Assembly: GCF_900156875.1 (NCBI RefSeq)
Contig: NZ_LT707409.1
Span: 544,237-608,236, forward strand
Reading direction: 5' to 3'
Origin: Robertmurraya dakarensis
GTDB lineage: Bacteria > Bacillota > Bacilli > Bacillales > Cytobacillaceae
Length of the DNA stretch: 64,000 nt
Position numbers and translations under genes: made by a program. Below are positions 12,779 to 64,000 of the stretch, piece after piece; position 1 is the first letter of the stretch; each line of letters opens with the position of its first letter. The notes beneath the pieces are model-generated. The model saw only the letters and a list, made by a program, of their open reading frames with translations. It made no database searches and was not told where the DNA came from.

Positions 12779-12805
12779 CGACATAATAAATCGGAGGGAA
12801 AGAAT

Positions 12806-17487: not shown

Positions 17488-17607
17488 AACACTAAGAAAA
17501 TCTTAAGAAATGCATTAAGTGTATATTAAGATTTGATTGATATCATTCTCTTAGCACGAAAAAGAGGTGATAGAAATGTTACAAATAACTTTTGGGAGTG
17601 AACTTCC

Positions 17608-30538: not shown

Positions 30539-30556
30539 AGAAAAGGGAGAACAGAA

Positions 30557-45358: not shown

Positions 45359-45385
45359 AAGTTCAATAAAGAGGGTGTGAGCAGG

Positions 45386-46339: not shown

Positions 46340-46408
46340 ACTGGTTACGAAAAAGTAACCGGTCTTATTTTATACTTAGGCTACAAAGAAAACAGGAGGA
46401 TGATCAAT

Positions 46409-47197: not shown

Positions 47198-47289
47198 GCT
47201 CCTGAATTCATAATTTATTAAAAGGCTTGTAAGGGATATTTCCGGAAGCTAAGAGCATTCCTGCTAGAATTTGTTGGGGAGTAAAAGGC

Positions 47290-47342
47290 AAGGCTTGTTC
47301 TCCAGTAAAGTAAAACTTTGCCGTACTGGGGGACAGGCCCTT
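47290..47342. repeat. Palindromic intergenic repeat, copy 10 (variant arms)
   Basis: AAGGCTTGTTCTCCAGTA, core TAAAACTTTGCC, right arm TGGGGGACAGGCCCTT. The following coding fragment reads in frame out of its right arm. Confidence 0.75.
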
Positions 47343-48039
47343 TATTTCAGAGGAACGTTATCAGACAGTCACTGAGCTAAGGAATGATTTTAAGCGGGCC
47401 GTAGAAAAGCACCTCCAGCAAGAAACAAAAGAAAAGTATGTACCAAAAGCTACACTTGTTGAAAAAAGGGATGCGCTTGAATTAGCAATTACTAATTGCA
47501 AGTTAGGGAAATTTAAACTTGCAGAAAAGATTCTTCAAACAGAGATTGCAAATGATCATGTATATCCCGACTTACTTCTTCAGTTATCATTCGTTTATTT
47601 TAAAACGGAACGTCGATTTGAAGAATTACAAACAATAGATAGTATTAATATAAATGCCGTTGAAGAAACGAGAAGAGAAACCTTCATAACCTCCTTGAAT
47701 GAATTAAAAGAAAGAATTCTATTCTCAATTAAGAAGTTCGAACAAGCTATGAAAATATATCAACAATTAGTACAACAACAACCTAATTCTATAGATTATC
47801 GCTACCGATTAGCAATATGTTATGGCCTTTGTAATCAGGAAGATAAAGCAATTCAAATTTTAGAGGATATTAATCAAGAGACTCCAGGAGTTTGGGTAGT
47901 AGTTAAAAAATTAGGTCTGGCATTCGAGCAAAAAAGAGAGTACGAAAAAGCAAGGGGATATTTCAAATATGCTTATAGACTAAAACCGGATGATCTGGAA
48001 GTGAAAGAAAAGTTGGAAAAATATGATTTTTATCTTTGA
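47336..48039 (+). pseudogene. 3' fragment of a kinase-like/TPR gene
   Basis: The frame is open from the repeat's right arm to 48039 (about 233 codons). It starts PFISEERYQTVTELRNDF, which looks like the very end of a Ser/Thr protein kinase catalytic domain (the ERYxTxxEL helix). It continues as TPR-like repeats (AMKIYQQLVQQQPNSIDYRY, GYFKYAYRLKPDDLEV). The kinase lobe itself is gone. A TTG at 47695 could start a 114-residue TPR product, but there is no good ribosome binding site. The gene seems truncated at the repeat. Confidence 0.6.
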
Positions 48040-48133
48040 TGATTTCAGAGTGAAAAATAACCTAGTATGAGACTATAATTATTTTTGAAGAATTTTTAAG
48101 TACATTATATTGAGGAAGGGGAAGGAAGAAGGA

Positions 48134-48547
48134 ATGGATAAATTAGATATAAAACAAAGGGTGTTAGTTACATTCTATATTGAATATCAAAAGGACCTGC
48201 CAGAAATGGAAAAGGTTAATGCAACTGATTTAGGTATTTCTCACGATATATTTAAAATGGCACTATTAAAATTAATAAATGAGGGTTTGATAACTGGGGT
48301 AGAATTTACTAGAGGAGGTCAAGGCAATAAGATACTTGGTGCATTTACAACAAACATACTTATGACCTCGAAAGGAATTGACTATGTAGAACAAAAGCTT
48401 GGAATAACTCCTACCTTAACTGCTGGTGAAAAAGTTAGAGAAGTTTCGAAAAAGGTGGCGGAATGGGGATATAACGAGATTAAGGATTTTACAGTAAAAG
48501 TAGCTGCTGAAATAGCAAAAAGCGCAATGGGATTAAACGGAAAATAG
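48134..48547 (+). CDS. YjcQ-like winged-helix protein
   Basis: A 137-residue protein with an N-terminal winged-helix-like part (KMALLKLINEGLITGVEF, followed by LMTSKGIDYVEQKLGI) and a C-terminal amphipathic tail (VKVAAEIAKSAMGL). It resembles the YjcQ family found in Bacillus and its phages. The ATG at 48134 follows GGAAGAAGGA. It is probably a small DNA-binding protein, inferred from the fold pattern. Confidence 0.65.
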   Translation: MDKLDIKQRVLVTFYIEYQKDLPEMEKVNATDLGISHDIFKMALLKLINEGLITGVEFTRGGQGNKILGAFTTNILMTSKGIDYVEQKLGITPTLTAGEKVREVSKKVAEWGYNEIKDFTVKVAAEIAKSAMGLNGK

Positions 48548-48849
48548 TAAAATCTTAATTTGTGATAAATTTTGTAAAGCAGAAGTTTAACAAAATAATT
48601 TAATGTATGACCTGGAAATTTGGCACCAATAATATACTGAATATTGTATCAGGAATTCACATTACCAGACAATTAAATCCTTAAATGAAAAACAGAAGTC
48701 AGTATATCTAACTTATTTGAGCTGGATGTAATCTTTGAAAAACAGTTTATTGTAAGGTTAAAAAAAGAACGAGATGGGAGGGAAGTTCCTCATTAAATTC
48801 TGTGAAATTTATTAACTATCATAAAAGAATTAGAAAAAATGTACATTAG

Positions 48850-49116
48850 ATAGCAGGTTCATCGAGTAGGTGGTATATCAAAAGAATAGATGTTGAAGAG
48901 AGTATTCCTTTAAGTTCATTAGTGGTGACTTTAGCATCAATTCACCGACTAAGTGAGCTATCCAGATATGAACCGCTAACTTTGTCTAAACATTTAAGTA
49001 GTCAACATAACTGGCTAATTTCAGAATGCATAAAAAATGCTCCATATCAATTTATAAATGAAATCGCATCGGAGATAACTGGAGAAGAATTTTTAGTGCC
49101 GAGATCAGGTATCTAA
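48850..49116 (+). pseudogene. 3' fragment of a YaaC-like gene
   Basis: A frame without start reads SSRWYIKRIDVEESIPLSSL, then VVTLASIHRLSELSRYEPL and ends ASEITGEEFLVPRSGI. This is the C-terminal part of a YaaC-type protein. Upstream the sequence (48548-48849) contains stops in all frames and no intact gene. The remnant is decayed. Confidence 0.6.
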
Positions 49117-49163
49117 TTTATTGTAATTTATTGAACAGTAACCCGTAGGAGAATTAATATAAA

Positions 49164-49709
49164 ATGGCAAAAAATAATAAAGTATTTTCATTAGGTAAAA
49201 CCTTCGCTTTATCTATTGTATTTATTGTGATAGGTATACTTTTAACAGTTATTGCAGAGAAATTTTCTATTTTTCCAATTAAAAATAATATAGAAACTAT
49301 GCTCTTTACAATATGGTCAGTACAAGCAACGGTTTCAACTTTAACAATAGCTATATTAGCTCTGTTAATTAGTCTTAATAAAGAAAAAAGATATGGGATA
49401 AATATATTGGACTTTATGTTAATTTCAAGTAGAAAGTTTCTAACTTTTCAGGATGAAATATTAATTATCTTATTATTGATTATAATTCAATACATATTTG
49501 TATCCTGCTTGTGGTTATCTGGCTCGATTTTCTTATTTATAGTTGGATTTCTAATAATAATTAGAATTTTATATGTAAGTATTAAAGTTCTTTTATTTGA
49601 AGATGATGTTCAAAAAGACATAACTAATTATATTATAAGTTCAATAAAAGCAGAATTGGCAAATGAGAATGAAAATTTTAGGAGTAATAATAGTGAAGAT
49701 ATTAAATAA
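49164..49709 (+). CDS. Four-helix membrane protein of a two-gene AT-rich unit
   Basis: A 181-residue membrane protein with hydrophobic spans at about residues 13-31, 47-68, 96-113 and 117-140, and a charged C-terminal tail (KAELANENENFRSNNSEDIK) that should face the cytoplasm. A TAGGAGAATT site precedes the ATG. Its stop overlaps the next gene by 17 bp. Base composition is visibly more AT-rich than in the surrounding genes, a sign of horizontal origin. The family is not recognised. Membrane protein plus large soluble partner is an arrangement seen in abortive-infection systems; that reading is inference. Confidence 0.75.
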   Translation: MAKNNKVFSLGKTFALSIVFIVIGILLTVIAEKFSIFPIKNNIETMLFTIWSVQATVSTLTIAILALLISLNKEKRYGINILDFMLISSRKFLTFQDEILIILLLIIIQYIFVSCLWLSGSIFLFIVGFLIIIRILYVSIKVLLFEDDVQKDITNYIISSIKAELANENENFRSNNSEDIK

Positions 49710-51609
49710 CTTATATTTACATACCATTGAGTCTATGGAAAATAAAGATATAGACGTATTAAATACTAATATTAGTATGTTTCTAACCATATACGAGACA
49801 ATATTGGAGGAGAGCAAGGACTATGATAAGTCGGAAGTCCTAAAACAATGGATAAAGTATATTAATTTTCTTGGGAGTAAAGCTATAGAAAATGGCTTAT
49901 TTGAAGAACTAACTGATCTACTTGAAACTGTATATAAACAGTCTTCACCATATGAATTAGATGTGGAATTAAACGAAACAATACAAAAACTAATAAACGT
50001 TTTTAGAGAATCAGAAAGTTTTGTTGAGTTAGAGAATATCCCAATAAAAAAGTTACTAAAGACGATTTATGTTACTTCAAGTGAAGAACTATTTCCAAAA
50101 TTTGTTCGAATATACTTCGCAATATTGAAAAATAAAAATCTTAGTGAAGAAGAAAAAGATCAATTAATTTCTAATATAGTAGTAAGTGGGATGTTTTATC
50201 TATATACAGAACCTAAAAACAGGACAGAAAAGGAAAAAGACATTTTTTTAATAATATTGTATACGTCTAAATACATGATTGATAATAAGGATTTTAATAG
50301 ATTTATTAAGTTATTAGGAAAACTTAAAGAGAATTTAATATTTGAGGAACATCTTCAAAAGTTATACTTATATATTAGTTGTTACTTATACTATCTCGGT
50401 TATAAAGAGGAACTGGCTACTGAAAGAAACTATCGTGAATTTATTAAAAAATATTACGAAAATCTTATGGTGCCGGAATTAATTTATTCAGACTTTTGGT
50501 TGAACTATGATGAAGTAAAGACTATACTTGATCGTTGGGAATGGTATCCACAGGGTGAAGTAAAAACTTTGATAATGGAAGATGTAGTTATAGAATTCTT
50601 CGTTTTTTTAAGTCTCTCTGTCGGGAGAGATGAATTTATAAATAGAATTGAAAAGGATGAATTGTTTAGTTTCTTAGATAGTAATCTCAACAATGAAGGG
50701 AATTTTAGAGAAAAAACCGAAGAAAACTTTAAAATTTTTAAAGAAGAATTAATGGGAATTAAAGTAGAGGATTCCTCACCTGAACTGGAAAATTTAAAAT
50801 ATCACTTAACAACAAGATTTAGAAAAATAAAAAGTGAAGAGTATAATAATTTAAGTAGAAATAGAGAAATAATAGATTATAATATGAAGAATATAAAAGA
50901 GTGTTTTGCAATTTTAATGGCTAAAAATCCACTCTTTAATAGGCTGACTTTTGGAGAGAAAAAGGAAACTATTAAAACAACCAACGTCTCCTATAAATTA
51001 ACACGTAAATATAATTTAGGTTTCTTTGCTTCACACAAGCTAAATAACTCATATGTTGATAAAGATCTTTTTAGGCATTTTGAAAAATTTATAGTTGATC
51101 TATTGATAGAAAATGGGTTCGAGTCAATAAAAATCGATTATAGACGGAATGATAAATTAGATATTCTATTTAATTTAATTCAACAACTTCCTGAAAATAA
51201 AGTAAACACACTCCTATCTGGAATAAGCGGTCCATCCTTGTATAATGAGAGTGAAACTAATAAAATGATTTATCAGAAGACTTTAGAACAGCTGAAGTTC
51301 GCAAAAATTAGGCTACCAGTTTGGATTGCTTATAATAATGAAGAAACATATATACGAGTTAAAAATATAAATGTTAATATAAATTCTCTAACCAATGAAG
51401 AAATTGAAGAAGAACTTAATAAAAATAAAGTGACGGAAGACTTATTTAAATTTCATTTAACAAATAACATCTTTACTTTTGTGAATGAAGAAGAAGCAAA
51501 AGAATTTCTAAATGTATCAAAAGTATCATTTTCAATAGATATTGAATTAGAGTTATTGCATGAAAATAAAGATAATGGATTTATAGTAATATCAGAAGTG
51601 ATAAGATAA
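49693..51609 (+). CDS. Large soluble helical partner protein, unknown family
   Basis: A 638-residue AT-rich, largely helical protein with no membrane segment and no nucleotide-binding motif that I can find. The GTG at 49693 is chosen because AGGAG lies 8 nt upstream; ATGs at 49663 and 49669 lack a site. It overlaps the membrane protein gene, so both are translated together. The C-terminal part (ETYIRVKNINVNINSLTNEE) may form a small separate domain. The function is unknown. It is a prime search target because of its operon and island setting. Confidence 0.7.
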   Translation: MKILNNLYLHTIESMENKDIDVLNTNISMFLTIYETILEESKDYDKSEVLKQWIKYINFLGSKAIENGLFEELTDLLETVYKQSSPYELDVELNETIQKLINVFRESESFVELENIPIKKLLKTIYVTSSEELFPKFVRIYFAILKNKNLSEEEKDQLISNIVVSGMFYLYTEPKNRTEKEKDIFLIILYTSKYMIDNKDFNRFIKLLGKLKENLIFEEHLQKLYLYISCYLYYLGYKEELATERNYREFIKKYYENLMVPELIYSDFWLNYDEVKTILDRWEWYPQGEVKTLIMEDVVIEFFVFLSLSVGRDEFINRIEKDELFSFLDSNLNNEGNFREKTEENFKIFKEELMGIKVEDSSPELENLKYHLTTRFRKIKSEEYNNLSRNREIIDYNMKNIKECFAILMAKNPLFNRLTFGEKKETIKTTNVSYKLTRKYNLGFFASHKLNNSYVDKDLFRHFEKFIVDLLIENGFESIKIDYRRNDKLDILFNLIQQLPENKVNTLLSGISGPSLYNESETNKMIYQKTLEQLKFAKIRLPVWIAYNNEETYIRVKNINVNINSLTNEEIEEELNKNKVTEDLFKFHLTNNIFTFVNEEEAKEFLNVSKVSFSIDIELELLHENKDNGFIVISEVIR

Positions 51610-51874
51610 GCAATTTAGACAAAACCAAAGAACTTGATCTATATTATCCTTTGGAAAAGCAGGAATAAAAGCAATGAAGGAAGAGAAGGAAAATGAGAAA
51701 AGATGGCGAAACTTATTAGTACGCCCACTGAAATTTCGAATCGTGAGCGGGGTTATTAGTGTAAAATTCGAACTAACCCCTTGTTCCTATTGACTTTCTT
51801 TTCCTATCGCCTAAAAATGCGACTTAAAATCGTGTTCCTAAGAAATTTTTATATTAACTTATAAGTAAGAGTAA

Positions 51875-51900
51875 AGCAGGTGAAAAATTATTCACCTGCT
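51875..51900. terminator. Bidirectional terminator
   Basis: AGCAGGTGAA (51875-51884) and TTCACCTGCT (51891-51900), perfect 10-bp stem, in the 590-bp gap that separates the convergent units. 51610-51874 and 51901-52092 show no gene. Confidence 0.75.
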
Positions 51901-52092
51901 CTACTTATTTTACACAATTTTTACACATCGCCCACACAAAACCTTATAAACTCAATAACTATTAATCTAGTACGACCCCGACCACCGAGGTCGAACTTAA
52001 AAGTATTTTCAAGCTGACTTTTATCTTAGTGAAGACTTCCAAGATTTTAATACTGTTTTTCTCAAACTCTCTCAAATAAAAAAGGGGATGCT

Positions 52093-52129
52093 AGTGCCTA
52101 TCCCGCGTGGTAAAGTATTACTGTAGTAA
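52093..52129. repeat. Truncated palindromic repeat, copy 11
   Basis: AGTGCCTATCCCGCGTGG, core TAAAGTATTACTGTAG; the right arm is replaced by unrelated sequence. Confidence 0.65.
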
Positions 52130-52157
52130 ATGAATTGGGTAAAAATTTTGAATAAAA

Positions 52158-52199
52158 AATAGGGTAAAGGTTCTTGAACTAGGACCTGTACCCTATTTC
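52158..52199 (-). terminator. Terminator of the helicase operon
   Basis: On the minus strand AAATAGGGTA (52199-52190) pairs with TACCCTATTT (52167-52158), followed by TTTTATTC. It lies directly after the last helicase stop at 52201. Confidence 0.8.
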
Positions 52200-52200
52200 T

Positions 52201-53871
52201 TTATTTTCCATATATACTCTTCTTAAAATTGGCTTCATAACTCCTCGTATCAAAATCACGAATAAAGGGAGATACTTTTTTAAATGTGTCACCTTCGTAC
52301 AAAAGATAGCATTCCTTCCTCGCTCTCGAGATGGAAACGTAGAGGAGTTTTTTCTCTTTATTTAAAAGGTTATCAAGGTCTTTTGAATATAAGTCGCTCT
52401 CCATCATTTCTTTTTTCGTATAGTTTGCCTTCAGTTCATCCATTGCTTCCTGATTAGGATAATGCGTTTTATCAAAATGAATGATGAATACATAATCAAA
52501 TTCTAGGCCTTTAATCGAATATGGATCAGTAAAGAAAATAGGCTTCTTGATTTCTTCATAATTAAACCTGGTTCCATAACGTTCAGTTGAAACTAAATCA
52601 AATTCACGGTCTAGAAAAGTTTTAACGGTAACATTCGATTGGTTTTTCAGGTGTAGATCGGAATACCTGTGAATTACCGCAATAGTGGCATCTTTATGGT
52701 TTTTATAGATGTCTTTAATTTTTTTGATCAAATACTGTACCATTTTTTTAGCATCGGCTGAATAGTGAATCTCTGGGGGTGGACCGGAGCGGACAAAAAT
52801 TTGATCATCTTCTCGGTCGTTGTCTACATCAATAAATTGAAGCTGGCTTGCAAGCTCCATAATTTCTTTCGTTGAGCGAAAATTTTGTTTCAATTTTCGA
52901 TTTCTTTTTCCCGCTATAAATAAGCCAAGCTCCCTAAAGGAAACAGGGGAGCGTTTGTAGATCTGCTGCTTGGCATCTCCTGCCAGTGTGATCGTTTTTT
53001 TCGTCAATCCCGTTAAGGCCTTAATTTGCATCGGCTGTAAATCCTGCATCTCATCGACAAAGATATGGTCATACCTAAGATGATCTGCAAGCCCATTATT
53101 GATTTCATTCAACAATTCCAATGCAAAATCTTCCATATCAAACTCTCGGTGCTCATAATTCGTACTCATTAGCTGATTGTACTTCGTAAATAAATGAAAA
53201 ATAGTTTCTTTCTGCTTTCCTGTCACCAAAGGTTTATTTCCTCTACCTGTCCTTGAAGTATCCAGGTATTTCTCTTTTGTGATTAATCCGTTACCCTTCA
53301 TCCATAAGAATTCCTCAATAAGAAATTTGACAGTATGGGATTTAAAGAGCTTCTCATATTGTTGATTCTCCTTAGACTCGTTAAACTGCGCCAAAATCGA
53401 ATGAACTCTGCGAAAAAGCAAATCTTCATGCCTTTTAATGCCAGCAGGGGTGATCGAGATGTATGGCAAAAAAGGATAGCCGCACTGCAATAATATTTTA
53501 CGAGCCATATGATGAAACGTTAAGATATCAATATCGTGTTTCTCTTTAATACTAGTATATAAGGAAGATAAATGTATTTTCTTCTTTGCATCCTGAATTA
53601 AAGTTTGGTTAAAGGATACAAACAATACCCGCTGCCGTTCTTCCTCTTGTTCTAAAATTTTTAATAAACGAAAGATAAGCATTAGGCTTTTGCCACTGCC
53701 GGCAGAACCTTGAATGATCATTTGCGGTTCGTTTTGCTGGACAATTTGGTCCTGTTCGTCTGTTAATTCTACATTGGGCAAAACGCCCTCTACATTAAAA
53801 TACTGCTGCCAGGTTCGAGCAGATTTCCTCGCAAAGGTTAGAAACTTTGAATTAGATGCGACTGCTGTCAA
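52201..53871 (-). CDS. UvrD-type superfamily 1 helicase, third gene of the trio
   Basis: A 556-residue SF1A helicase with Walker A IIQGSAGSGKSLML, motif II FVDEMQDLQ, motif III LAGDAKQQIYKRS, motif IV RKLKQNFRST, motif V SIKGLEFDYVFI and motif VI LLYVSISRARKEC. The full set is intact, so ATPase activity is expected. It is shorter than PcrA/UvrD and lacks a nuclease domain. Translation starts at a TTG inside the end of the AddB-like gene (20-bp overlap) after AAGGA. Its sequence differs clearly from the first helicase of the operon, so the two are not a recent duplication. Confidence 0.9.
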   Translation of the reverse strand: MTAVASNSKFLTFARKSARTWQQYFNVEGVLPNVELTDEQDQIVQQNEPQMIIQGSAGSGKSLMLIFRLLKILEQEEERQRVLFVSFNQTLIQDAKKKIHLSSLYTSIKEKHDIDILTFHHMARKILLQCGYPFLPYISITPAGIKRHEDLLFRRVHSILAQFNESKENQQYEKLFKSHTVKFLIEEFLWMKGNGLITKEKYLDTSRTGRGNKPLVTGKQKETIFHLFTKYNQLMSTNYEHREFDMEDFALELLNEINNGLADHLRYDHIFVDEMQDLQPMQIKALTGLTKKTITLAGDAKQQIYKRSPVSFRELGLFIAGKRNRKLKQNFRSTKEIMELASQLQFIDVDNDREDDQIFVRSGPPPEIHYSADAKKMVQYLIKKIKDIYKNHKDATIAVIHRYSDLHLKNQSNVTVKTFLDREFDLVSTERYGTRFNYEEIKKPIFFTDPYSIKGLEFDYVFIIHFDKTHYPNQEAMDELKANYTKKEMMESDLYSKDLDNLLNKEKKLLYVSISRARKECYLLYEGDTFKKVSPFIRDFDTRSYEANFKKSIYGK

Positions 53872-56338
53872 TTGGATACATTCCTTCCATACAAATTGTT
53901 AGGTGAGGACACATGCTACAATGGTGACCGTTATCGGCTTCTACTTGATGTTGGTCAATAAACTGCACAAATTGATTCAAAAGCACTTTCTCGTTGAGTC
54001 GGCCATCTTCATATTGATTTCTCGCTTTTGTCCGATGATTTTCCCTGTACACACTCCTTAATTTCTGAAGGCGGTTCATCGCCTTGGGATATCGGACATT
54101 ATCATATTCATAATATTTTCTGAACTTCGCAGGAAACTCGGTAGTTAATAAATTCAATTTTAAGGCTCCAGTCCATTGTGGAAAGAGAGGGAAGAGCGCT
54201 TCTTCCACTTCTTTTCTACCCCCGGATTGCTGCTCAAGCAGTGAGGATATTGTTGCAAAAGCCAGCCTTTGGTGAAAATCCGTTTCATAGATTGGCTGCT
54301 GCTCGATAATAGAAGTAAAGAAAAATTTTCTGGCACAAAAATCAAGGTCGAGCCAGTATAGATTTGGAAATTCACCTTTAATTGGTATTAAATCCTCTTG
54401 CCCGCCTTTTTCATGACGGATTGGCTCCCGCCACTCAAAATTATCATCTTCAGCTGGCAATGTACTTTGTGATTCGCCATAAATCTCCGTTAAAAATTCT
54501 AAATATATACTAGGGAGGTCATTTTCTCTTAAATTTTTGATCCAGCTTATTTCCAAATTGCCTTCATAGAATGCAACCAGCGAATAGAGGTTGTACAAGG
54601 ATATTTCAGGAGCGTATTTTCGGCTTAAAAAGTCGACCAATAAACAATGCAGCAGAGTATTCTTTTGCTTATGATCAGGTGTAATCATTTCCTTTAGTCT
54701 TGAATGCTTCAACCATTTTGGTAAAGCTGGAATCACACTAGGGTATGAAAATAAACTGATATCCGTAACATGCAATGTTCTATGCTTGCTGAATAAGAAA
54801 GAAGGGATCTGCAAGAATCCTTGCACAGGTTCAGTTTCCTGCTGTTTATCCGATAATAATAGATTTAAAAGATCAAAAAGCTCCGGCTGATAGCATTCAA
54901 ACGATTCATTTAGCTGAATGTTATAAATGCTTTGATAATACGCAGCTTGTTCTTCGTCCCAGTGTCGGCTAATACGGACGATGGCGCTTGTGAATCTTTT
55001 TAAATATTCATTAGCGTCCATTGTTTCTGTATCGTTTAATACCAAATATTGCAATTTTTTTTGCAAATCAACGGTTAATTCATAGAGCTGTTTGATGGTC
55101 ACTTGGTAGCGGTGCCTATGAACGTAAGGCAGGACACGAAAAGGATTCGAAAGATAGCGTTTTACCCGGTTTTTTCCACTTTTTTCGGCGCCTTCATCAT
55201 CGAAGACTTTGCTCACTTCACTAAGTTCTTGGAGGGTGGCGAGTCGCTCAATGATTTCTTGAATATTTTTGACCCCTTCCATATAACCTCGCAAATCCTT
55301 CACTAAAGCTTTAGAATCTACCCCCGACACATTCCTATCAAATACCCAGGCAGAAGTGATTAATTCCTCATATGTCTGATAAGACAAATACAATTCGTCG
55401 TTCCGTTTTTCGCATCGCTGCAAGAAATAAATGAATTTCCCGTATATATTCTCATATTTTGAATTAAAGGCTGTCGTAACAACGGTGTTTACTTTATCGC
55501 GATCAGCTGCGACCCATGCGTATGGATCTTTTCGTTCATGGAAATAGGTCCGAAAATGCTCGATTAAGTTAAAACGCATAATGGCGGGGGAAGCCTCATC
55601 CTGCATATTTTCTTTCTTGCCATCTAAGAAACCGGCGAATTTCGTTCCTTTTGTATGATGAGGGCGTTGTAATACTTCCCATTCTTTAGGTTCTTTCCTC
55701 GACAAACCATGGTAGATTTTTTGCCAGCCTTTATAGGCAGCTGGAAACCGGTTCTCATATGGAATGCGAAAAATAATCTTGATCCCAATGCTTCTTAACG
55801 CATGCACAAGCCTCATTGCGGTCGCGGACATAAGCTCCATCCCGTAAAAATAAATGGCTCTACAAGGTTGTAATTTTTCCTTCAAATAACCTTTGTTCCT
55901 TAAATGCTTTTTGGGTGAATGATGAGTAACAAATTCATCCTCTTTTAATTCTTCAACAATCTTTACGACCAGTTTTTCTTCGTTGTTTCGAGCATAGGTT
56001 TGATCAAAAGGAAGTCCACTTTCTTCAATAAATCGAAAAGTAATCATCATTTCACGAATGGAAGATAACAGATGCTTAGCTTCAACGGTAGTTTCTTTTA
56101 GCAATAAAGCTCTAATTTTACTTTTTAAGTATACGTCTGTCAGTGAATGATACCATTCTGGAAACAAAAGAATTTGAAGTTGTTGAATAGATAATGTTTG
56201 CATCTGGTATTTTTGTGCAACATCGACCATGGATTCTGAACCGAAAATGTGCATTTCATCGGATCGGTGATCGATTTTCTCCTCATCTAAAAACTGCTTG
56301 AGATTAACGTATGTTTGGACTTGAAACAAGATTTTCAC
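53852..56338 (-). CDS. AddB-like protein keeping the Fe-S cysteines but lacking the nuclease core
   Basis: An 828-residue protein with the layout of AddB/RexB-type helicase-fold subunits but no Walker A motif. At the C-terminus CSMCPHLTIC gives Cys807, Cys810 and Cys816, the same CxxCxxxxxC spacing as the Fe-S cluster of B. subtilis AddB. A matching upstream cysteine, Cys668, lies in LDFCARKFFF. In AddB about 320 residues containing the D...ExK nuclease centre separate these; here only 139 do, and no VVDYK-like motif is present. The staple remains, the blade is gone. The start is a GTG at 56338 or, better spaced from AAAGGAA, a TTG at 56329. It overlaps the upstream helicase gene. Confidence 0.8.
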   Translation of the reverse strand: MKILFQVQTYVNLKQFLDEEKIDHRSDEMHIFGSESMVDVAQKYQMQTLSIQQLQILLFPEWYHSLTDVYLKSKIRALLLKETTVEAKHLLSSIREMMITFRFIEESGLPFDQTYARNNEEKLVVKIVEELKEDEFVTHHSPKKHLRNKGYLKEKLQPCRAIYFYGMELMSATAMRLVHALRSIGIKIIFRIPYENRFPAAYKGWQKIYHGLSRKEPKEWEVLQRPHHTKGTKFAGFLDGKKENMQDEASPAIMRFNLIEHFRTYFHERKDPYAWVAADRDKVNTVVTTAFNSKYENIYGKFIYFLQRCEKRNDELYLSYQTYEELITSAWVFDRNVSGVDSKALVKDLRGYMEGVKNIQEIIERLATLQELSEVSKVFDDEGAEKSGKNRVKRYLSNPFRVLPYVHRHRYQVTIKQLYELTVDLQKKLQYLVLNDTETMDANEYLKRFTSAIVRISRHWDEEQAAYYQSIYNIQLNESFECYQPELFDLLNLLLSDKQQETEPVQGFLQIPSFLFSKHRTLHVTDISLFSYPSVIPALPKWLKHSRLKEMITPDHKQKNTLLHCLLVDFLSRKYAPEISLYNLYSLVAFYEGNLEISWIKNLRENDLPSIYLEFLTEIYGESQSTLPAEDDNFEWREPIRHEKGGQEDLIPIKGEFPNLYWLDLDFCARKFFFTSIIEQQPIYETDFHQRLAFATISSLLEQQSGGRKEVEEALFPLFPQWTGALKLNLLTTEFPAKFRKYYEYDNVRYPKAMNRLQKLRSVYRENHRTKARNQYEDGRLNEKVLLNQFVQFIDQHQVEADNGHHCSMCPHLTICMEGMYPIDSSRI

Positions 56339-58700
56339 TTCCTTTGACGATAAGATCGCTCCACGTACGAATAGAGAAATTATTTGTTTGATCAGGAGAT
56401 TGCACGAAAGCTCCTTTCTTCGCCCTCGTGAGCGCTACATAAAGTAATCTTGTTTCTTCTCCTGCTAGTTCGGTTGTTTCTTCTCTTCTCATACCTTGAT
56501 AAAATTTGTTCTGAATCCCTCCTTTATTGGTTAAATCAGCTGAATATCCGATGTTGTCTCCATCTAAGAGAACGTCCATACCGGTAAATTTCTCGAAAGG
56601 CTTGTTCGTGTTGGGGATAAAGACATAATCAAATTCGAGGCCTTTCGCTTTATGGACCGTCATAATTTTGATTCTTTTTTGGTCTTGTTCTTCTAGTGCC
56701 AATATCGATTCTGTATTATTTCCAGTCATGGAAATAGATAAATGCCTTTCGATAGCAAATAGGGTAGGGACCGAATAACGAAATGATTCCTTCAAAAGTA
56801 TGAGCAGTTTTTCCAAATTCATCGCATATTCTCTTTCTTGAGTTCTTGCTTCGGCTTCAATCATGTCAGCTGGAATGTGAGTCTGTTTTTCTCTTTTGGC
56901 TGTATAGAGCCTCTCTGCATATCTCTTTGATGGTTTTATTTGATATATTAATTTTTCTAACACCTCGAAAACAGGCCGCTTGTCAAAATAGTCAGCAAAT
57001 GCCGACAGATGTGGGTCTAGATCTGATAGCAAAGGCTCAATATACATTTTTTCCGAGGAATACGAACCAATTACATCCAAAATCGTTGTGGAACGGTCTC
57101 CGTAGGAAGACAGGTGCAAGGCCAAACGATTTTTCCATACATTGGGCTGCAGGAAACGTCTAATTAATAAATAAAATTCACGTACAGCCAGAGAGCGGTA
57201 GAAAGTGCCGTCTTGAACTGTTCGGAAGGCGATCTGCTCTCTTGACAGGATGGATGCTATTTCAAGAACTTCTTTATTCGTGCGAACAAGAATGGCTGTA
57301 TCATTGTATTGATATTCTTCCAAATCCTCCAGGAACTCGCGATTTCGATGCCAGTTCTTTTTCACCAATCCGACTGCAGCCAGATCATTATCATGGATTG
57401 GCTTCAGATGATCTCTATCTTTGTATAGAAAGCCGTTGACCCACTTCGGCCAGCGATTGAACATATAATTAAAATGATGAATGAGCAACCGATTTGAACG
57501 GTAGTTTTTCTGAAGTGAAAAACGAGCGAAATTTGAGATGAGCTCTTCAATCTGCTCGAAAGCCGTATAATCAGCACCGCGGAACCTATATATGCTCTGC
57601 TTTACGTCTCCAACCACAAATAATGGGGCTTTAAGCATTTTTGAGAGCCATCCAAAAAAAGCCACCTGCGTTCGGTCAGTATCCTGAAATTCGTCGATCA
57701 TGATCGATTTATAAGTAAATTCTTCAGGGAGTGATGCTGAATAAAGTGATTGCAGTTCGCTAATTAAATCATTTACATCTAAATAGCCTTCTTCATTTTT
57801 AATTCTGTTCAGCTTGCTGTATGTATTTTTAACAAGAAAATTAAGCAGATGATTCATTTCTTTTGTATCGTCTCCAAAAGAAAGGTCCATAATTTTAGAA
57901 GAGTCTAGAGCTAGATTGTCCAGGTGATCCAATATTTTTTCTACTAATGACACGATTTCATACTGAGGAACATAAAGCCATTCTTTGAATTTATCTTTAT
58001 ATTCCACCGTGTACGCATCAATCGAATCTTCAATAAGGAGGCGTCTTTGATAGCGATATCCCTTTATTTTAATGCGGTCATTGCTAACATATTCCTTTCG
58101 ATTTGAAGGGAGAATGCGTCTTGCAAAAGAATGAATAGTGCCAATGGCCATATCCCTAAGTTCTTCCATCCATAATAAATACTTTCGATCTTTCGTGCAT
58201 GCGTAATAGCCGCGAAGTTTTTTCAGCAGTTTATCTCTCATATTTGACACCGCTTCGTTTGTAAAGGTTACGACGACCATTTCATTAAACTGAATAGGGA
58301 CATCATTATGCCTTAGAAAGAGGAGTCGATCAATCATTACCGTGGTCTTCCCAGTGCCGGCACCTGCGTTCACGAGTATATTTTCATCAATAGGAGAATG
58401 CTCAATAAGGTATTGTTCCATATTAAATGTTTCAAACGCCTTAGATAATTCTGTTAATTGCTCCTGTGGAATATTTCCATTTTCAAAGCAGAAGCGATTC
58501 CCCTGGTACCAAGAATCGGAAGGCAAGGTAAACACTTGCAAAATCGAATACTCTTTAGCTGTTTGCAAAAGAGGAGATTGAACGAAATCAAAAGGTGTCG
58601 GTGTAAAAAAGTATACCTTTATTCCATTTTCAACATCATTGATTATCGTATCAATATTTTCATCTGTTACTTCTGGTTCATAATAAATTTTGGAATACAT
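56304..58700 (-). CDS. UvrD/AddA-type helicase, first gene of the trio
   Basis: A 798-residue SF1A helicase. After an unusual N-terminal extension of about 100 residues come Walker A LVNAGAGTGKTTVM, motif II MIDEFQDTDRTQ, motif III VGDVKQSIYRFRGAD, motif V MTVHKAKGLEFDYVFI and motif VI LLYVALTRAKKGA. It resembles AddA in its helicase part but lacks AddA's C-terminal nuclease domain. The ATG at 58700 follows GGAGG; a longer frame to 58715 runs through that site. It heads a three-gene operon whose genes all overlap, so the products probably form one complex. Confidence 0.9.
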   Translation of the reverse strand: MYSKIYYEPEVTDENIDTIINDVENGIKVYFFTPTPFDFVQSPLLQTAKEYSILQVFTLPSDSWYQGNRFCFENGNIPQEQLTELSKAFETFNMEQYLIEHSPIDENILVNAGAGTGKTTVMIDRLLFLRHNDVPIQFNEMVVVTFTNEAVSNMRDKLLKKLRGYYACTKDRKYLLWMEELRDMAIGTIHSFARRILPSNRKEYVSNDRIKIKGYRYQRRLLIEDSIDAYTVEYKDKFKEWLYVPQYEIVSLVEKILDHLDNLALDSSKIMDLSFGDDTKEMNHLLNFLVKNTYSKLNRIKNEEGYLDVNDLISELQSLYSASLPEEFTYKSIMIDEFQDTDRTQVAFFGWLSKMLKAPLFVVGDVKQSIYRFRGADYTAFEQIEELISNFARFSLQKNYRSNRLLIHHFNYMFNRWPKWVNGFLYKDRDHLKPIHDNDLAAVGLVKKNWHRNREFLEDLEEYQYNDTAILVRTNKEVLEIASILSREQIAFRTVQDGTFYRSLAVREFYLLIRRFLQPNVWKNRLALHLSSYGDRSTTILDVIGSYSSEKMYIEPLLSDLDPHLSAFADYFDKRPVFEVLEKLIYQIKPSKRYAERLYTAKREKQTHIPADMIEAEARTQEREYAMNLEKLLILLKESFRYSVPTLFAIERHLSISMTGNNTESILALEEQDQKRIKIMTVHKAKGLEFDYVFIPNTNKPFEKFTGMDVLLDGDNIGYSADLTNKGGIQNKFYQGMRREETTELAGEETRLLYVALTRAKKGAFVQSPDQTNNFSIRTWSDLIVKGSENLVSSPNIR

Positions 58701-58854
58701 TTCATAATCCTCCAAGAAATGACTATATGTCTATTATACTATTTGTGAATGGATTCAGTAAGTGAGAAGCTCCTAACCAACTTTTAACTAATATTATTCC
58801 TCTTTTTTAAAGGGCTTTATTCTTAATAATTGTTCTATTACTAACTTACGCAAC

Positions 58855-59097: not shown

Positions 59098-59973
59098 TTG
59101 AACATTGAAGAGTTAATAGAAGCCATTAAGAACTTAACTATATGGAAAAAAGGTAATCAGCGGGCTCCCCATAAACCATTGCTAATTCTTTACGCATTAG
59201 GAAAAATTCTTAGTAATCAAAGGCTGCTGTCGTATGAGCAGGTAAGTGGAGATTTAAAACAGCTTCTTATCGAGTTTGGTCCTTTAAGAAAATCATATCA
59301 TCCAGAGGAGCCCTTTGTTCGTTTAACACGAGATGGTATTTGGGAACTTGATAAAGGAGTAAACTTGTCTAACCCAAATAATAGGTTGTTACTAGAGGAA
59401 CAAGTTAACGGCGGATTTACAAACGAGGTTTATCATTTATTGAATCAGAATATAGAACATATTCCCATTATTGCTCAGATTATTCTTGATCAGCATTTTC
59501 CCGCTTCTATTCATGAGGATATTCTGGAGGCGGTAGGGTTAGACATGTCGTTTTCAATATCTAGAAGGAAAAAACGTGATTCAAGGTTTCGTGATAAGAT
59601 ATTAAGAGCGTATCGATATAGCTGCGCTATTTGTGGTTTTAACGTACGTCTCAGACATACATTAGTTGCAGTAGAAGCAGCTCATATTAAATGGCATCAA
59701 GCTGGTGGACCTGACGTTGAAGATAATGGTCTCGCGCTATGTTCCATGCATCATAAATTATTTGATAGAGGTGTATTTACTATAAATAATGAAAGACGTA
59801 TGGTTGTTTCTCAGGATGCCCATGGAACTCAAGGATTTGAAGAATGGCTTATGCGCTATCATGGTAATGTCATTAAACCCCCTATTGAAACTATTTATCA
59901 GCCGAGTTCCACCTATATTAACTGGCATGTAAAGGAAGTTTTTAAGGGACCTGAGAGATATGTGACAGGTTAA
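59098..59973 (+). CDS. Type IV SBD-HNH endonuclease (phosphorothioate-sensing)
   Basis: A 291-residue protein. The N-terminal RAPHKPLLILYALGKIL and LLIEFGPLRKSYHPEEPFVRL match the sulfur-binding domain (SBD) of ScoMcrA-like restriction enzymes. The C-terminal half is an HNH nuclease: YSCAICGF, then VEAAHIKWHQAGGPDVEDNG, ALCSMHHKLFDRG, with the zinc cysteines and catalytic His. Such enzymes cut DNA carrying phosphorothioate links and so exclude Dnd-modified DNA. It starts at a TTG with a weak AAAGGGA site. There is no dnd cluster in view, as expected for a cell that restricts such DNA. Confidence 0.88.
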   Translation: MNIEELIEAIKNLTIWKKGNQRAPHKPLLILYALGKILSNQRLLSYEQVSGDLKQLLIEFGPLRKSYHPEEPFVRLTRDGIWELDKGVNLSNPNNRLLLEEQVNGGFTNEVYHLLNQNIEHIPIIAQIILDQHFPASIHEDILEAVGLDMSFSISRRKKRDSRFRDKILRAYRYSCAICGFNVRLRHTLVAVEAAHIKWHQAGGPDVEDNGLALCSMHHKLFDRGVFTINNERRMVVSQDAHGTQGFEEWLMRYHGNVIKPPIETIYQPSSTYINWHVKEVFKGPERYVTG

Positions 59974-60044
59974 TCAATCAATTAAGATAGGTTATATAAG
60001 TTAACTAATAGTAAATTAATCATAGAAATACTCGTTGGTTTACG

Positions 60045-60071
60045 AATTACCATAAATATATATTGGTAATT
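60045..60071. promoter_or_regulatory. Inverted repeat upstream of zorA
   Basis: AATTACCA (60045-60052) and TGGTAATT (60064-60071), perfect 8-bp arms around an AT-rich centre, 120 bp before the zorA start. Candidate operator of the Zorya operon. Confidence 0.4.
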
Positions 60072-60190
60072 TATTGTTATATTTTGTACTATAAATAAGA
60101 ATGATCGGATTAGATATTAATCCGATTTTTATTATGTCTTTAGATGAGTACTATAATACTATTTATATAGATTACAGAGGAGGAAAAAAT

Positions 60191-62719
60191 ATGCTCTTGG
60201 ACCTGCTTGTCGATATGTATCACAGTCCATATATTATATTTCTAGCAATTTTAGCGTTAGTGGTAGTTGCCATTTTTATGGTTCGTGCCTACCTGTTAAA
60301 GAAATCAGTCGCCATACTTGTGAAAAAATTAAGTGAATTAAAAGAAAGCAATCCGGAGGCATCAGACAAAGAGATAGCACATTTGTTTAATGAAATAATC
60401 GCAAGTGAAAATGTTAGCGAAGCTATTAAAGAATGTTGGGATCAGTACTATAAAGACTTAAAAGATTCTCAAGTCCCACCTGATGTGTACCAGTATTTTA
60501 CGGAAAAATTACTTGTCAATGGTTATGGTTATCGTAAAATAGCAGAATCTATCCCTGCTGTATTCCTATCATTAGGTATTTTAGGAACTTTTTATGGTAT
60601 CGCAGCCGGGATGAAAAAAATTGATCCGTATGCCCCATCAGAAGAACTCCGTTTAGGAATTGCAAATTTGATGGGGGGAATGGAAATTGCATTCCATTCT
60701 TCGATTGTCGGGATTATTTTATCTTTGCTTATTCAATTTATTGATAAAGGTTATATTTATAAAACCTTAACATCTAGTTTTCGAGTACTTAGAAATGCAA
60801 TGGATAAAGCATTTCCAGTAAAAACAGAAAGTGACTTTTTGAACGATATTTTGGCAGATCAGACAACTAAGAGTGAAGGGTTAAAACAATTTGTCATTCA
60901 AGATTACTTATCAGCAATGAAAAATGAAATAACAGATATTGTTAATGACCGTCTTATTCCTTACTACACAAGAGATCAAGAAATTTATGAGACACAGGTT
61001 TCCTTACTTTCAAGTATGGAATCTCACCTAAGGCATGATTTAGCTATTCAAATAGGTTCAGAGGTAAGGGATATAGTTACAGGAACCTTGAATCCAATAA
61101 TCGAACAGTTGCATGAAGCTCAAAAGCAGCAAAATACAAAACTAACAGAAGTAAATGAATCCATTGTAAAAGAGCTTCCTCAATTATTGAAACAGGACCT
61201 CATAGAAGTCATGGATAATAATTTTAGACCGCATTTTGAACAAAATAATCAAATTATGGCGGAAATGGCGGAAGGTACACAAACAGTTCTTCGAGAACAC
61301 ATGGATCAAATGGTGGACCATTTCGTAGGTACGATGAAAGACATGGCTGGAGAGCAAATTGAAAAACTTCAAGGAATTCTTACACAGACGATGGACTGGC
61401 AGACCAAAGTATATGGTGAACTAAATCAACTTGTTGAAAAACTACAGGTATCTGCAGATAGACAGTCAGACATGGCAGATAAATCTAGTACTCTCTCAGA
61501 CAAACTGCAAGAATTCGTCTCAGTATTCAATGAATACCAAGAAAGTCTTGTTGGCTCAATAAGCGAATTGATGACCGTTACAGACCACAATAAATCAATA
61601 CAAACACACACAGGAAAGCTGCTTGAACAAATATCCAGTGAAAAAGAAGTTCATGGCAAAGCAATAGTAGAGATGATCGGCAAATTAGTAAACGTAACAG
61701 ACAACTTGGACAAGCAAGCAGCGGCACTAGGTGATATGCAAAAAGAAATGTCAACTCTTTCTGCTACGTATAATCAAGTGGAAATTCTTATTGAAAGTCT
61801 CGAAAAGTCAACAGAAAAACAAACGCAACTAGCTGCAAAAACATCTGAGTTGTTCAAGGAAAATGAGAAATTTGCAGAGCAGCTTTCTGATTATCAAGTT
61901 AAAACAGCAGAATCTTCAGAAAAGTTGTCAGAATCAGCCCTGAAGCAAGTTGAGACACATGAGAAAATGTCAGGGTTATTACAGGATATAACTAAAGAAC
62001 GCATGAATATGCTTAAAGAATTCGAAAATCAGCTGAAGCAATTTAGTGAATCATCACACGTAATGAAAGAGCAGGGAGAAATGTTGAATTCGCTTCAAAA
62101 AACAATGGTTTCTTCCATAGAAAAATACAATAACTCAACAAAAGGTTTAGAGGAACTGACATTAACAAACAAATATTTGGCTGATAATCTATCAGACTAT
62201 ACAGGGAAAATAAATCAATCGGCAAAAGGTCTTGAACAAATCCTTGCTAACGCTGGGAAGAATATTGAATTACAGCACCAAATTCAAAAGGATTTGAATG
62301 GGATTGTAAATAAATTCACTGTAGAACGTGTGCAATTTGAAAAGCTTACAAAAGAAGAAATGAACACATTAAAAGAGCAGTTAAAAAATGCTGATCAGCG
62401 TTCCAAACAATTACAAGCATTTTGGAAAGACAATGTTGAGCAATTAAAACATGGACACAGAATGTTTGCAGACCTTAATGAAAAATTAGACAAGTCTATG
62501 GAACACTTTGCTGATCATATGTATAGAGGATTGGATCGTACATTTACCCAATTCGATAAGCAGTTATCTACTTCTGTATCTTACTTAGACCGTGGTGTCG
62601 GAAGTATCAAGACGGTCGTAGATGATATGGAAGAGAGTTTTACAGGTATTCACCGCAGTATTCGTTCTTTTCAAGAATCATTAGAGCAAGCAGCAATCTC
62701 TAAGGAGAGTGAAAAGTAA
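60191..62719 (+). CDS. zorA: Zorya ZorA, MotA/ExbB-type proton channel with long tail
   Basis: An 842-residue protein. After one membrane helix (about residues 14-32) comes a MotA/TolQ/ExbB domain with PAVFLSLGILGTFYGIAAG and MGGMEIAFHSSIVGIILSLL. The last 550 residues are coiled coil, the long intracellular tail that characterises ZorA. With ZorB it forms a proton-driven inner-membrane motor that signals phage entry to the cytoplasmic effectors. The ATG at 60191 follows GAGGAGG; a frame back to 60101 lacks a site. The stop overlaps the zorB start (TAATG). Confidence 0.93.
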   Translation: MLLDLLVDMYHSPYIIFLAILALVVVAIFMVRAYLLKKSVAILVKKLSELKESNPEASDKEIAHLFNEIIASENVSEAIKECWDQYYKDLKDSQVPPDVYQYFTEKLLVNGYGYRKIAESIPAVFLSLGILGTFYGIAAGMKKIDPYAPSEELRLGIANLMGGMEIAFHSSIVGIILSLLIQFIDKGYIYKTLTSSFRVLRNAMDKAFPVKTESDFLNDILADQTTKSEGLKQFVIQDYLSAMKNEITDIVNDRLIPYYTRDQEIYETQVSLLSSMESHLRHDLAIQIGSEVRDIVTGTLNPIIEQLHEAQKQQNTKLTEVNESIVKELPQLLKQDLIEVMDNNFRPHFEQNNQIMAEMAEGTQTVLREHMDQMVDHFVGTMKDMAGEQIEKLQGILTQTMDWQTKVYGELNQLVEKLQVSADRQSDMADKSSTLSDKLQEFVSVFNEYQESLVGSISELMTVTDHNKSIQTHTGKLLEQISSEKEVHGKAIVEMIGKLVNVTDNLDKQAAALGDMQKEMSTLSATYNQVEILIESLEKSTEKQTQLAAKTSELFKENEKFAEQLSDYQVKTAESSEKLSESALKQVETHEKMSGLLQDITKERMNMLKEFENQLKQFSESSHVMKEQGEMLNSLQKTMVSSIEKYNNSTKGLEELTLTNKYLADNLSDYTGKINQSAKGLEQILANAGKNIELQHQIQKDLNGIVNKFTVERVQFEKLTKEEMNTLKEQLKNADQRSKQLQAFWKDNVEQLKHGHRMFADLNEKLDKSMEHFADHMYRGLDRTFTQFDKQLSTSVSYLDRGVGSIKTVVDDMEESFTGIHRSIRSFQESLEQAAISKESEK

Positions 62720-63426
62720 TGGCCAGAAGAATTCGCGGATCAGATGATTTGCATGATGTTGATAGAGAAGAAACAAGCAGTCATTGGATATCTTATTCCG
62801 ATTTAATGAGTGCTCTACTTTTAATGTTTGCTTTGTTTCTTATGATAAACATCTTAGAAAGCAAAGCTGCAATGGAAGAAAAGGATCAAATGATTGAGGA
62901 ATTAACAGGCGTTCGAACCAAAATTATTGAAGAACTGAAAGCAGAATTTGAGCACTCTAAGCTGAGTATGGAAGTTGACCCGCAAACGGGTGCCATTCGT
63001 TTCTCTAGTGGTGTCTTCTTTGGCACGAATGAATCAACTGTTTCAGATCAGGGGAAAGAACATTTAAAAGAGTTCATCCCTAAATATATTGATGTTCTTT
63101 TCTCGGAAGGGTTTAAAGATAATGTAGCCCAAATTATTGTAGAAGGCCACACAGATCAAAGTGGAACCTATCTGTATAATTTAGATCTATCACAAGAACG
63201 TTCTTTAGCCGTTGTCAAAGAAATACTGTCTGATGAATTTCCTGATTTTGAACATAAAGACCAACTGCGTAATCTTCTAACTTCAAATGGCCGGTCTTTT
63301 AGTGAGTTGATTTATGAAGATGGTGTGGTAAATCCAAACAAATCAAGACGGGTGGAATTTAAGTTTCGACTAAAAGACGAAGATCTAATTAATAAATTAC
63401 AGGATATGGTACTGACTCATGAGTAA
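62719..63426 (+). CDS. zorB: Zorya ZorB, MotB/OmpA-type stator subunit
   Basis: A 235-residue protein with one membrane helix (about residues 29-47) preceded by WISYSDLMSALLLMF, where Asp28 is the expected proton-carrying residue. The C-terminal OmpA-like domain, IIVEGHTDQSGTYLYNLDLS and NKSRRVEFKF, binds peptidoglycan. It overlaps zorA by 1 bp and the next gene by 8 bp, as in other Zorya operons. It would anchor the motor to the cell wall. Confidence 0.93.
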   Translation: MARRIRGSDDLHDVDREETSSHWISYSDLMSALLLMFALFLMINILESKAAMEEKDQMIEELTGVRTKIIEELKAEFEHSKLSMEVDPQTGAIRFSSGVFFGTNESTVSDQGKEHLKEFIPKYIDVLFSEGFKDNVAQIIVEGHTDQSGTYLYNLDLSQERSLAVVKEILSDEFPDFEHKDQLRNLLTSNGRSFSELIYEDGVVNPNKSRRVEFKFRLKDEDLINKLQDMVLTHE

Positions 63427-64000
63427 GAGTGTCGTGTTTCATTCATTTGAATTCCAACCTTGTAAACTCAAAGAATTAGCTGGTTTTTTAGAAAATAAAT
63501 ATAAGGATGAGAAGAAATATTCTTCTCAAAATCTAAAAGAAGATATGCTGCCGCCTTTGCTTGACGAAATTAGGAAACTCTCCAACGAGAAAAAATTCAT
63601 CATAGATTATGCAAACAATCTAAGCAGCAAAAATATCCGGTTGTTAGCATTCTATTATCCTTATATTCATAACGAAAAAGCAGATACTAAGAAAAAAATC
63701 CATCTCATTCTAAAAGAACGTTACCAAACTTTTGTTGGCGGCATAATGTGGAACCATTTCCAAAATACGCCAACAGATCCTATTATCATAAGTATATTAA
63801 GATTGGCATTTAATATGGAGAATGACGATTTCCTATCATTAGACAAAGAAATTCGGAATACTATTAACATAGCTATTAATCAGAAGAACCTTCTTCATAA
63901 CTTGGAAAGATACCTTTCTCGTCAGAGAAAAACACTAATGGATATGTTTAAAATAATGTCTATCAACCCAGAAGGGAAATTGGCAAAATATCTTTGGTAT
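63419..64000 (+). CDS. zorC: Probable Zorya ZorC, N-terminal part (runs off window)
   Basis: Frame open from ATG 63419, overlapping zorB by 8 bp, to the window end (194 codons). The visible part is helical (MSKSVVFHSFEFQPCKLKEL ... RYQTFVGGIMWNHFQNTP) and fits the start of a ZorC-type, EH-signature protein better than ZorE (HNH) or ZorF. If right, this is a type I (ZorABCD) system with a ZorD helicase beyond the edge. The subtype call is tentative because the diagnostic domains are not in view. Confidence 0.6.
   Translation, partial: MSKSVVFHSFEFQPCKLKELAGFLENKYKDEKKYSSQNLKEDMLPPLLDEIRKLSNEKKFIIDYANNLSSKNIRLLAFYYPYIHNEKADTKKKIHLILKERYQTFVGGIMWNHFQNTPTDPIIISILRLAFNMENDDFLSLDKEIRNTINIAINQKNLLHNLERYLSRQRKTLMDMFKIMSINPEGKLAKYLWY

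Follow-up and report, generated by a model that had tools for sequence, protein, structure and literature searches.

A helicase/AddB-like protein/helicase operon without a recognizable nuclease core beside Zorya genes of Robertmurraya dakarensis: a candidate defense complex

The nuclease of AddAB and RecBCD is generally regarded as the means by which these enzymes destroy DNA. AddAB of the Bacillus subtilis type, which recognizes Chi and resects DNA ends, pairs an AddA/RecB-like motor with an AddB-fold partner that carries a C-terminal four-cysteine Fe-S staple, with a D..(D/E)xK nuclease domain in AddA and/or AddB, while RecBCD joins a motor, an inactive scaffold, and a second motor, RecD, of SF1B type. 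UvrD-Cas4 fusions, as described by Hudaiberdiev et al. (2017, PMC5704561), combine the helicase with a Cas4-like nuclease in one protein. The operon reported here was found in a stretch of 64,000 nucleotides of R. dakarensis DNA (contig NZ_LT707409.1, positions 544,237 to 608,236), called the window in what follows, with these features:

56304..58715, minus strand: H1, AddA/RecB-like SF1A helicase of 803 amino acids (Pfam matches, motifs)
53852..56338, minus strand: B, AddB-like scaffold of 828 amino acids with the cysteine staple retained (Foldseek, motif scans)
54335..54337, minus strand: codon of Cys668, the first staple cysteine (invariant in 40/40; place computed from the ORF coordinates)
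53891..53920, minus strand: codons of Cys807-x2-Cys810-x5-Cys816 (invariant in 40/40; place computed from the ORF coordinates)
52201..53871, minus strand: H2, small UvrD-like SF1A helicase of 556 amino acids (Pfam matches, motifs)
59098..59973, plus strand: HNH endonuclease gene, a divergent neighbor outside the operon, given for context (neighbor scan)
60101..64000, plus strand: Zorya genes zorA and zorB and a third ORF past the window edge, given for context (PADLOC for zorA and zorB only)

The original prediction, made from the window sequence, was of three overlapping minus-strand genes, and the ORFs (58715-56304, 56338-53852, and 53871-52201) are indeed all open and overlap by 35 nt (H1/B) and 20 nt (B/H2), forming an operon. 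It was compared with a set of 40 related loci, among which L005 and L034 are 99% identical and were each counted; L036 and L037 are duplicates of L010 and L011. Left out were L088 and L100 (a contig edge cuts B), L098 and L099 (where the HMM search detected no B ORF, though weak matches occur there in another search), the fragmented G748, and 12 weak partial matches that are perhaps AddB or RexB (G460, G473, G487, G542, G581, G587, G661, G732, G752, G932, G1000, and G1165). Co-occurrence of the three genes, proposed as a check, held for H1, which adjoins B in all 40 loci; it did not hold throughout for H2, a complete copy of which follows B in 26 loci and is missing in 14 (in L013 because the contig ends).

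H1 and H2 of the window both match the Pfam families UvrD-helicase and UvrD_C and contain Walker A, motif II, and motif VI. They stop 39 and 40 residues past motif VI, respectively, and neither has a Pfam match to a nuclease domain, in agreement with the predicted two distinct, intact UvrD-type helicases without a nuclease tail. H1 scores 203 bits against the RecB model and 168 bits against the AddA model, both under the cut-off, and in the 119 amino acids ahead of the GTGKT of its Walker A, no NERD-type N-terminal motif was found. Its C terminus lies 26 to 50 residues past motif VI in 39/40 loci, motif VI of L096 not being recognized; motif II was not found by pattern in H1 of L087 and L096. 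A nuclease-like N-terminal motif is present on H1 in 10/40 loci (Pfam NERD in three) but on no H1 of the window clade, and the predicted absence of a nuclease applies to that clade and not to the family. The window H2 matches PcrA/UvrD models and has no RecD match. By eye, its N terminus resembles a separate small ORF that precedes H2 in other clades.

For the window B, Pfam gave no match close to the cut-off, NCBIfam and PADLOC gave none at all, and sequence comparison with the PDB gave no meaningful match. Its structure model, medium in quality overall and unreliable at the C terminus, has AddB of the AddAB-DNA complex as its top Foldseek match (3u44_B; E value, 2.8e-8; TM-score, 0.40; identity in the structural alignment, 11%), followed by RecC; AlphaFold2 on the last 199 residues yielded helices only, at a pLDDT of 45. 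With hhalign, the cysteine-bearing segment aligns to AddB (probability, 49%; E value, 1.7e-4), the whole-profile match is weak (probability, 3%; E value, 0.014), the AddB core region gave no alignment (E value, 0.24), and the comparison missed the helical portion of the nuclease domain of AddB. The AddB assignment is one of fold more than of sequence. Cys668, Cys807, Cys810, and Cys816, the last three with C..C.....C spacing, are the only positions of B conserved without exception in the 40 homologues, and the Fe-S cluster that they may bind is predicted from this pattern. The first two are 139 residues apart, versus 320 in AddB of the same genome (L055, C819 and C1139). The D..(D/E)xK pattern was not found in the last 300 residues of the window B and occurs in 0/40 B proteins versus 8/8 AddB proteins tested (those of 18 AddB loci with an ORF found on the plus strand); Walker A is likewise missing from the window B. 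PADLOC, run on 24 B proteins, gave only weak Cas4/Cas4d matches in at most 5/24 (best, 4.3e-5), which we read as reflecting the cysteine segment. In B of L050, L094, and L097, a longer segment looks by eye like a degenerate core. The original prediction had named an Fe-S staple with exact spacing, a segment of about 140 instead of about 320 residues, and no D...ExK motif, all of which stand; structure prediction gave the AddB match it had called for, and the nuclease site elsewhere in B that it had named as counting against it was not seen by motif scans, the models of the C terminus being poor.

Compared with AddAB, the operon has an AddA-type motor beside an AddB-type scaffold and retains the four cysteines, but H1 is without a nuclease tail, neither the D..(D/E)xK nuclease domain nor Walker A is found in the window B, a helicase gene is added, and the distribution is accessory, with the housekeeping copy also present. 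The prediction of an AddAB relative is supported by this AddAB-like pair with an intact staple and a lost nuclease core. RecBCD shares the arrangement of motor, inactive scaffold, and second motor and supplies the second structural match of B, yet the window H2 is UvrD/PcrA-like instead of RecD, and the operon has no nuclease. UvrD-Cas4 fusions similarly join an SF1 helicase with a nuclease-type Fe-S module and occur next to Dcm/Vsr and restriction genes (PMC5704561), whereas the present operon lacks the nuclease core and encodes its scaffold separately, as an AddB-like protein. Gabija also employs a UvrD helicase in defense, and GajB models match H1 and H2, which looks like general UvrD similarity; with no GajA match in the seven neighbor ORFs scanned at the window, Gabija was rejected. 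The NERD+UvrD candidate of PADLOC (C3a187) matches H2, and some H1 relatives begin with a NERD domain; the window H1, unlike these, has no NERD-type motif. Membership in Zorya was rejected on the grounds of opposite strands and joint occurrence of ZorA and ZorB at 2/40 loci only, and no dnd or dpd genes that would indicate a Dnd or Dpd system lie at the window. No description of the operon was found among the open-access papers matched and listed, and, as predicted, no named system of this composition was found in the literature or libraries searched (Pfam, NCBIfam, and PADLOC for the window B).

The neighborhoods of the trio are rich in defense genes (C5 methylases, Vsr, type I restriction-modification [R-M], Zorya, Dnd, and DpdE/F-like genes), and same-genome controls are not: at 20 of the 40 loci, with one control region per genome, PADLOC matched 418 families from 114 neighbor ORFs versus 20 families from 118 control ORFs, numbers inflated by redundant models. 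Related operons recur amid defense genes in other Firmicutes. None of 14 defense classes, searched with queries biased by their derivation from the trio loci themselves, was found within 8 kb in 10/40 loci. DndD is present in 3/40 loci and DpdE with DpdF in 2/40, none of them the window, and H1 and B of five loci received no Dpd names. The window is one of the two loci with both ZorA and ZorB matches, and its Zorya genes lie directly upstream of the operon and divergent from it. The claim of a position between Zorya and other defense genes therefore holds on this side; on the other, four ORFs (45344-51609) have no PADLOC match, and the next defense-like cassette (29465-37285), which we take to be Wadjet-like, is 15 kb away. 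Within the window clade (14 loci), an ORF of PC4 type, an ssDNA-binding family, follows H2 in 6 loci (by Pfam for two) and PC4 also occurs in 1/20 controls; no PC4 remnant was seen behind the window H2 in the three minus-strand frames of 51551-52210.

From this gene context we infer a role in defense, and with moderate confidence we propose that the operon encodes an AddAB-derived DNA-unwinding complex serving it, with DNA cut in trans or blocked by unwinding. H1 would be a 3'-5' motor, B an AddB-type inactive scaffold whose C-terminal domain would be held by the staple with its putative 4Fe-4S cluster, and H2 a second SF1A motor. Invading DNA would be unwound by an H1-B-H2 complex loaded at its ends or gaps, which would leave the strands to be cleaved in trans by adjoining restriction enzymes or host nucleases, with an anti-phage effect as the outcome; alternatively, unwinding alone might block replication or circularization.

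A helicase-nuclease after all, with a dedicated nuclease subunit moved off the H1 polypeptide in the window clade and acting in trans, seems unlikely to us. In its favor, H1 has the nuclease-like N-terminal motif in 10/40 loci, and because some relatives have this NERD-type motif, the family may act as a nuclease. A separate NERD ORF adjoins L050, NERD is found in 3/114 neighbor ORFs (among the 25 Pfam families listed), HsdR-type ORFs with their own nuclease adjoin 6/14 window-clade loci, and the HNH gene adjoins the window trio, all of which would suit a nuclease in trans. No one nuclease family accompanies the clade, however: among 133 neighbor ORFs of its 14 loci, the commonest clusters, PC4-type and HsdR-type, reach 6/14 each, and neither is at the window.

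The distribution of B bears on whether the trio serves the host's own DNA metabolism. B was found in 19/397 genomes of the order and in 2/61 near relatives, its own genome included, and addB is above the cut-off in 18 of the 19 carriers, which, with this patchy presence, rules out the housekeeping addAB replacement that the original prediction had set against itself. Searches with B found none in phages or in viral contigs (queries, one sequence and A1), and one Geobacillus plasmid was matched; the trio on a Geobacillus plasmid adjoins DNA polymerase IV and YolD genes. This setting, the AddAB-like build, and the many copies beside R-M genes would fit a repair or recombination factor whose nuclease-free end processing guards the host from self-restriction or aids plasmid maintenance. 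Such a role is still less likely in our view than a nuclease in trans, given the rarity of the trio, the addB retained by its carriers, and a second, divergent trio in the same genome, 14 kb off from edge to edge.

Selection is evident in dN/dS values of 0.06 to 0.13 in 4/6 close pairs, which together with the invariant cysteines indicates that the trio is more than a chance assembly. Lost catalysis in a retained architecture might also mark a sensor or decoy that binds phage inhibitors of AddAB/RecBCD, freeing the real enzyme or triggering a response, and a Gabija preprint offers a precedent in a defense system that reads the loss of RecBCD on DNA (PMC12407980). We consider this improbable, since B has so little identity to AddB and the helicase motifs, which a decoy does not need, are retained under low dN/dS. 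A decaying AddAB remnant without function, suggested by the loss of the catalytic core, is strongly opposed by the same cysteines, dN/dS values, and intact window motors and was rejected.

Returning to the AddAB-derived unwinding complex, we suggest more tentatively that it belongs to a family of defense effectors whose nuclease center first decayed and was later lost by deletion, with the staple remaining invariant. This would have given a nuclease-free two-motor machine in the window clade and, in the family as a whole, a module reused as an unwinding arm beside modification-based systems (C5 methylases, Dnd, and Dpd-like) and Zorya. A core-less family that keeps staple and motors would make it possible to test what role the staple has once the nuclease is lost and whether unwinding is by itself enough for defense. 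That it turns up next to several modification systems unrelated to one another points to a modular effector, unnamed in the defense and family libraries searched.

Both helicases encoded by the trio, H1 and H2, are of the UvrD type, and their genes overlap that of the AddB-like protein, B, on either side:

58715-56304, minus strand: H1, AddA/RecB-like helicase, overlapping B
56338-53852, minus strand: B, AddB-like protein, overlapping H1 and H2
53871-52201, minus strand: H2, small UvrD-like helicase, overlapping B

Window H1 scored highest with RecB, at 203 bits, and with Gram-positive AddA, at 168 bits, neither score reaching the cut-off, and its motif VI lies 39 residues from the C-terminal end. 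Window B had nothing close to the cut-off in Pfam and no match in NCBIfam or PADLOC. The original prediction had given B an Fe-S-type cysteine staple (Cys668, Cys807, Cys810, and Cys816); its cysteines and their spacing were confirmed, the first two lying 139 residues apart, compared with 320 in the genome's own AddB. Searches of an open-access paper library found no description of the trio operon. A second, divergent H1-B-H2 trio lies outside the window in the same genome (locus L003, 9057-16762; L-numbers denote loci compared with the window), followed by a 280-amino-acid ORF that has no Pfam match, appears nuclease-like by eye, and has a relative near the L034 trio.

Within the order, a four-protein B alignment matched 19 of 397 genomes; a 24-protein alignment matched 27 of 398 genomes in the class (nine weakly) and 9 of 398 in the phylum (five weakly), with some genomes counted in more than one search. 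A contig scan with two short patterns, which will miss members, identified carriers in Neobacillus paridis, Geobacillus icigianus, Anoxybacillus voinovskiensis, A. mongoliensis, a Desulfoscipio MAG, and Geobacillus proteiniphilus; the trio is also present on plasmid pJS1-2 of Geobacillus zalihae. In our comparison set of 40 loci, H1 and B were always adjacent on the same strand (with H1 leading in 37 and B in 3), and a complete H2 followed the pair in 26; at L013, the contig end truncates H2. The dN/dS values of H1, B, and H2 were 0.055 to 0.128 in four close pairs (dS near saturation in one pair) and 0.15 and 0.22 for L089/L090; L005/L034 gave 0.17 to 1.33 from very few changes, a pair too similar to judge.

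The four staple cysteines were the sole columns invariant across all 40 B proteins (first-to-last span, 122 to 239 residues; median, 148). The AddB nuclease-core pattern D..(D/E)xK was found within the last 300 residues of 8/8 AddB proteins versus 0/40 B proteins. Walker A is a feature of AddB (8/8) that B lacks, with a lone pattern match among the 40 (L083). An AlphaFold2 model of B from a seven-sequence alignment was of medium quality (pLDDT 60, poor C-terminus); its top Foldseek PDB match was the AddB chain of DNA-bound AddAB, at E 2.8e-8, 11% identity, and a TM-score of 0.40 normalized by query length, followed by RecC and then by UvrD, AdnAB, and Rep/PcrA chains. Profiles of 24 B and 8 AddB proteins aligned collinearly but weakly (probability 3%, E 0.014). 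When AddB was split into segments, B matched its cysteine-bearing end (probability 49%, E 1.7e-4) but not its nuclease core (E 0.24); the helical part ahead of the core was not recovered. Because the profile matches are weak and the core segment is unmatched, the probable AddB ancestry of B leans more on fold, partner, and cysteines than on sequence. The B proteins of L050, L094, and L097 contain a longer segment that by eye resembles a degenerate core, and these loci lie on the deepest branch of the midpoint-rooted FastTree tree, so that decay of the nuclease core followed by its deletion is a fair, though unproven, reading.

The H1 N-terminus is longer in other clades than in the window's. 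When eight long H1 proteins and window H1 were scanned for Pfam NERD, the domain was present in L043, L049, and L093 and was not found in L039, L044, L083, L089, L092, or the window; the NERD-domain D..ExK motif was also found by pattern in L039, L040, L044, L045, L048, and L083, and L042 has a D..DxK-type N-terminus. Altogether, 10 of the 40 loci have an N-terminal nuclease-like motif on H1, six have a long N-terminus lacking it, and in the other 24 the N-terminal extension is short or absent. The proposal of an operon without a nuclease therefore holds for H1 in the window's clade (motif in 0/14 loci) but not for the family; its sister group in the tree (L048, L049, and L093) has the motif throughout. 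L048 (7477-8064) and L049 (8054-8689) share an ORF of 195 to 211 amino acids immediately behind B, with no Pfam match.

Walker A was present in H1 at 40/40 loci; the pattern scan missed motif II in two H1 proteins, those of L087 and L096, and in the latter motif VI as well. All 26 H2 proteins examined have Walker A, motif II, and motif VI, with 28 to 46 residues from motif VI to the end. An ORF of 62 to 97 amino acids precedes H2 in nine loci, all of other clades; by eye, H2 of L082 and the second H2 of L081 (a tandem H2 pair, 5748-8903) carry a comparable stretch as an N-terminal fusion, and H2 of the window's clade opens with a similar motif (L047 fits poorly). A PC4-type ORF lies behind H2 in 6/14 loci of the window's clade, and none does at the window; Pfam gives PC4 for L010 and L038, and a PC4 match also occurred in 1/20 controls.

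Neighbors were sampled at 20 loci of the 40 (no more than three ORFs per side, each ≥150 amino acids; n = 114) and controls, by the same rule, around a single region at a distance of half a contig in each of those 20 genomes (n = 118). PADLOC families at E 1e-10 numbered 418 for the 114 neighbors versus 20 for the 118 controls, whose complete PADLOC list contained no methylase. Among the first 25 Pfam families listed, neighbors had C5 DNA methylase (9/114), ResIII (4), MutH (3), NERD (3), N6_Mtase (2), and HsdM_N (2); the first 25 control families mostly had transport or metabolic roles, plus some AAA domains. Direct queries for 14 defense classes, drawn from trio loci themselves, found at least one within 8 kb at 30/40 loci versus 2/20 controls: C5 methylase at 12/40 versus 0/20, Vsr at 9/40 versus 0/20, HsdM at 5/40 versus 1/20, and HsdR-type at 6/40 versus 0/20. 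DpdE- and DpdF-like helicases, scoring below curated cut-offs, share the gene run at L048 and L093. DndD exceeded its cut-off at L049, L050, and L094, which also have DndE-like genes; L050 carries two different DndD homologues (12039-14054 and 16920-18950), both over the cut-off, with DndA (over the cut-off) and a DndE-like ORF. ZorA and ZorB, preceded by an HNH gene and followed by a third ORF, occupy window positions 59098-64000 and L003 1-908. The gene after these opens another cassette; no ZorD was noticed. At 29465-37285, the window has a four-gene cassette (357, 505, 252, and 1,490 amino acids, the last SMC-like) that appears Wadjet-like, two ORFs of which cluster with L012 ORFs.

Dcm/Vsr and restriction genes also adjoin the UvrD-Cas4 helicase-nucleases (PMC5704561), the same setting as the trio's. 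In AddAB, the Chi recognition locus sits in the inactive helicase domain of AddB, which gates the DNA path from the AddA motor (PMC4824097). Because the trio keeps this layout, but without the nucleases, we infer that it is an unwinding machine, with DNA cut in trans. HsdR-type ORFs near 6/14 loci of the window's clade would be candidate cutters, the window excepted, as it has none. Gabija has been proposed to act on linear DNA that lacks RecBCD (PMC12407980), which makes DNA ends a plausible battleground.
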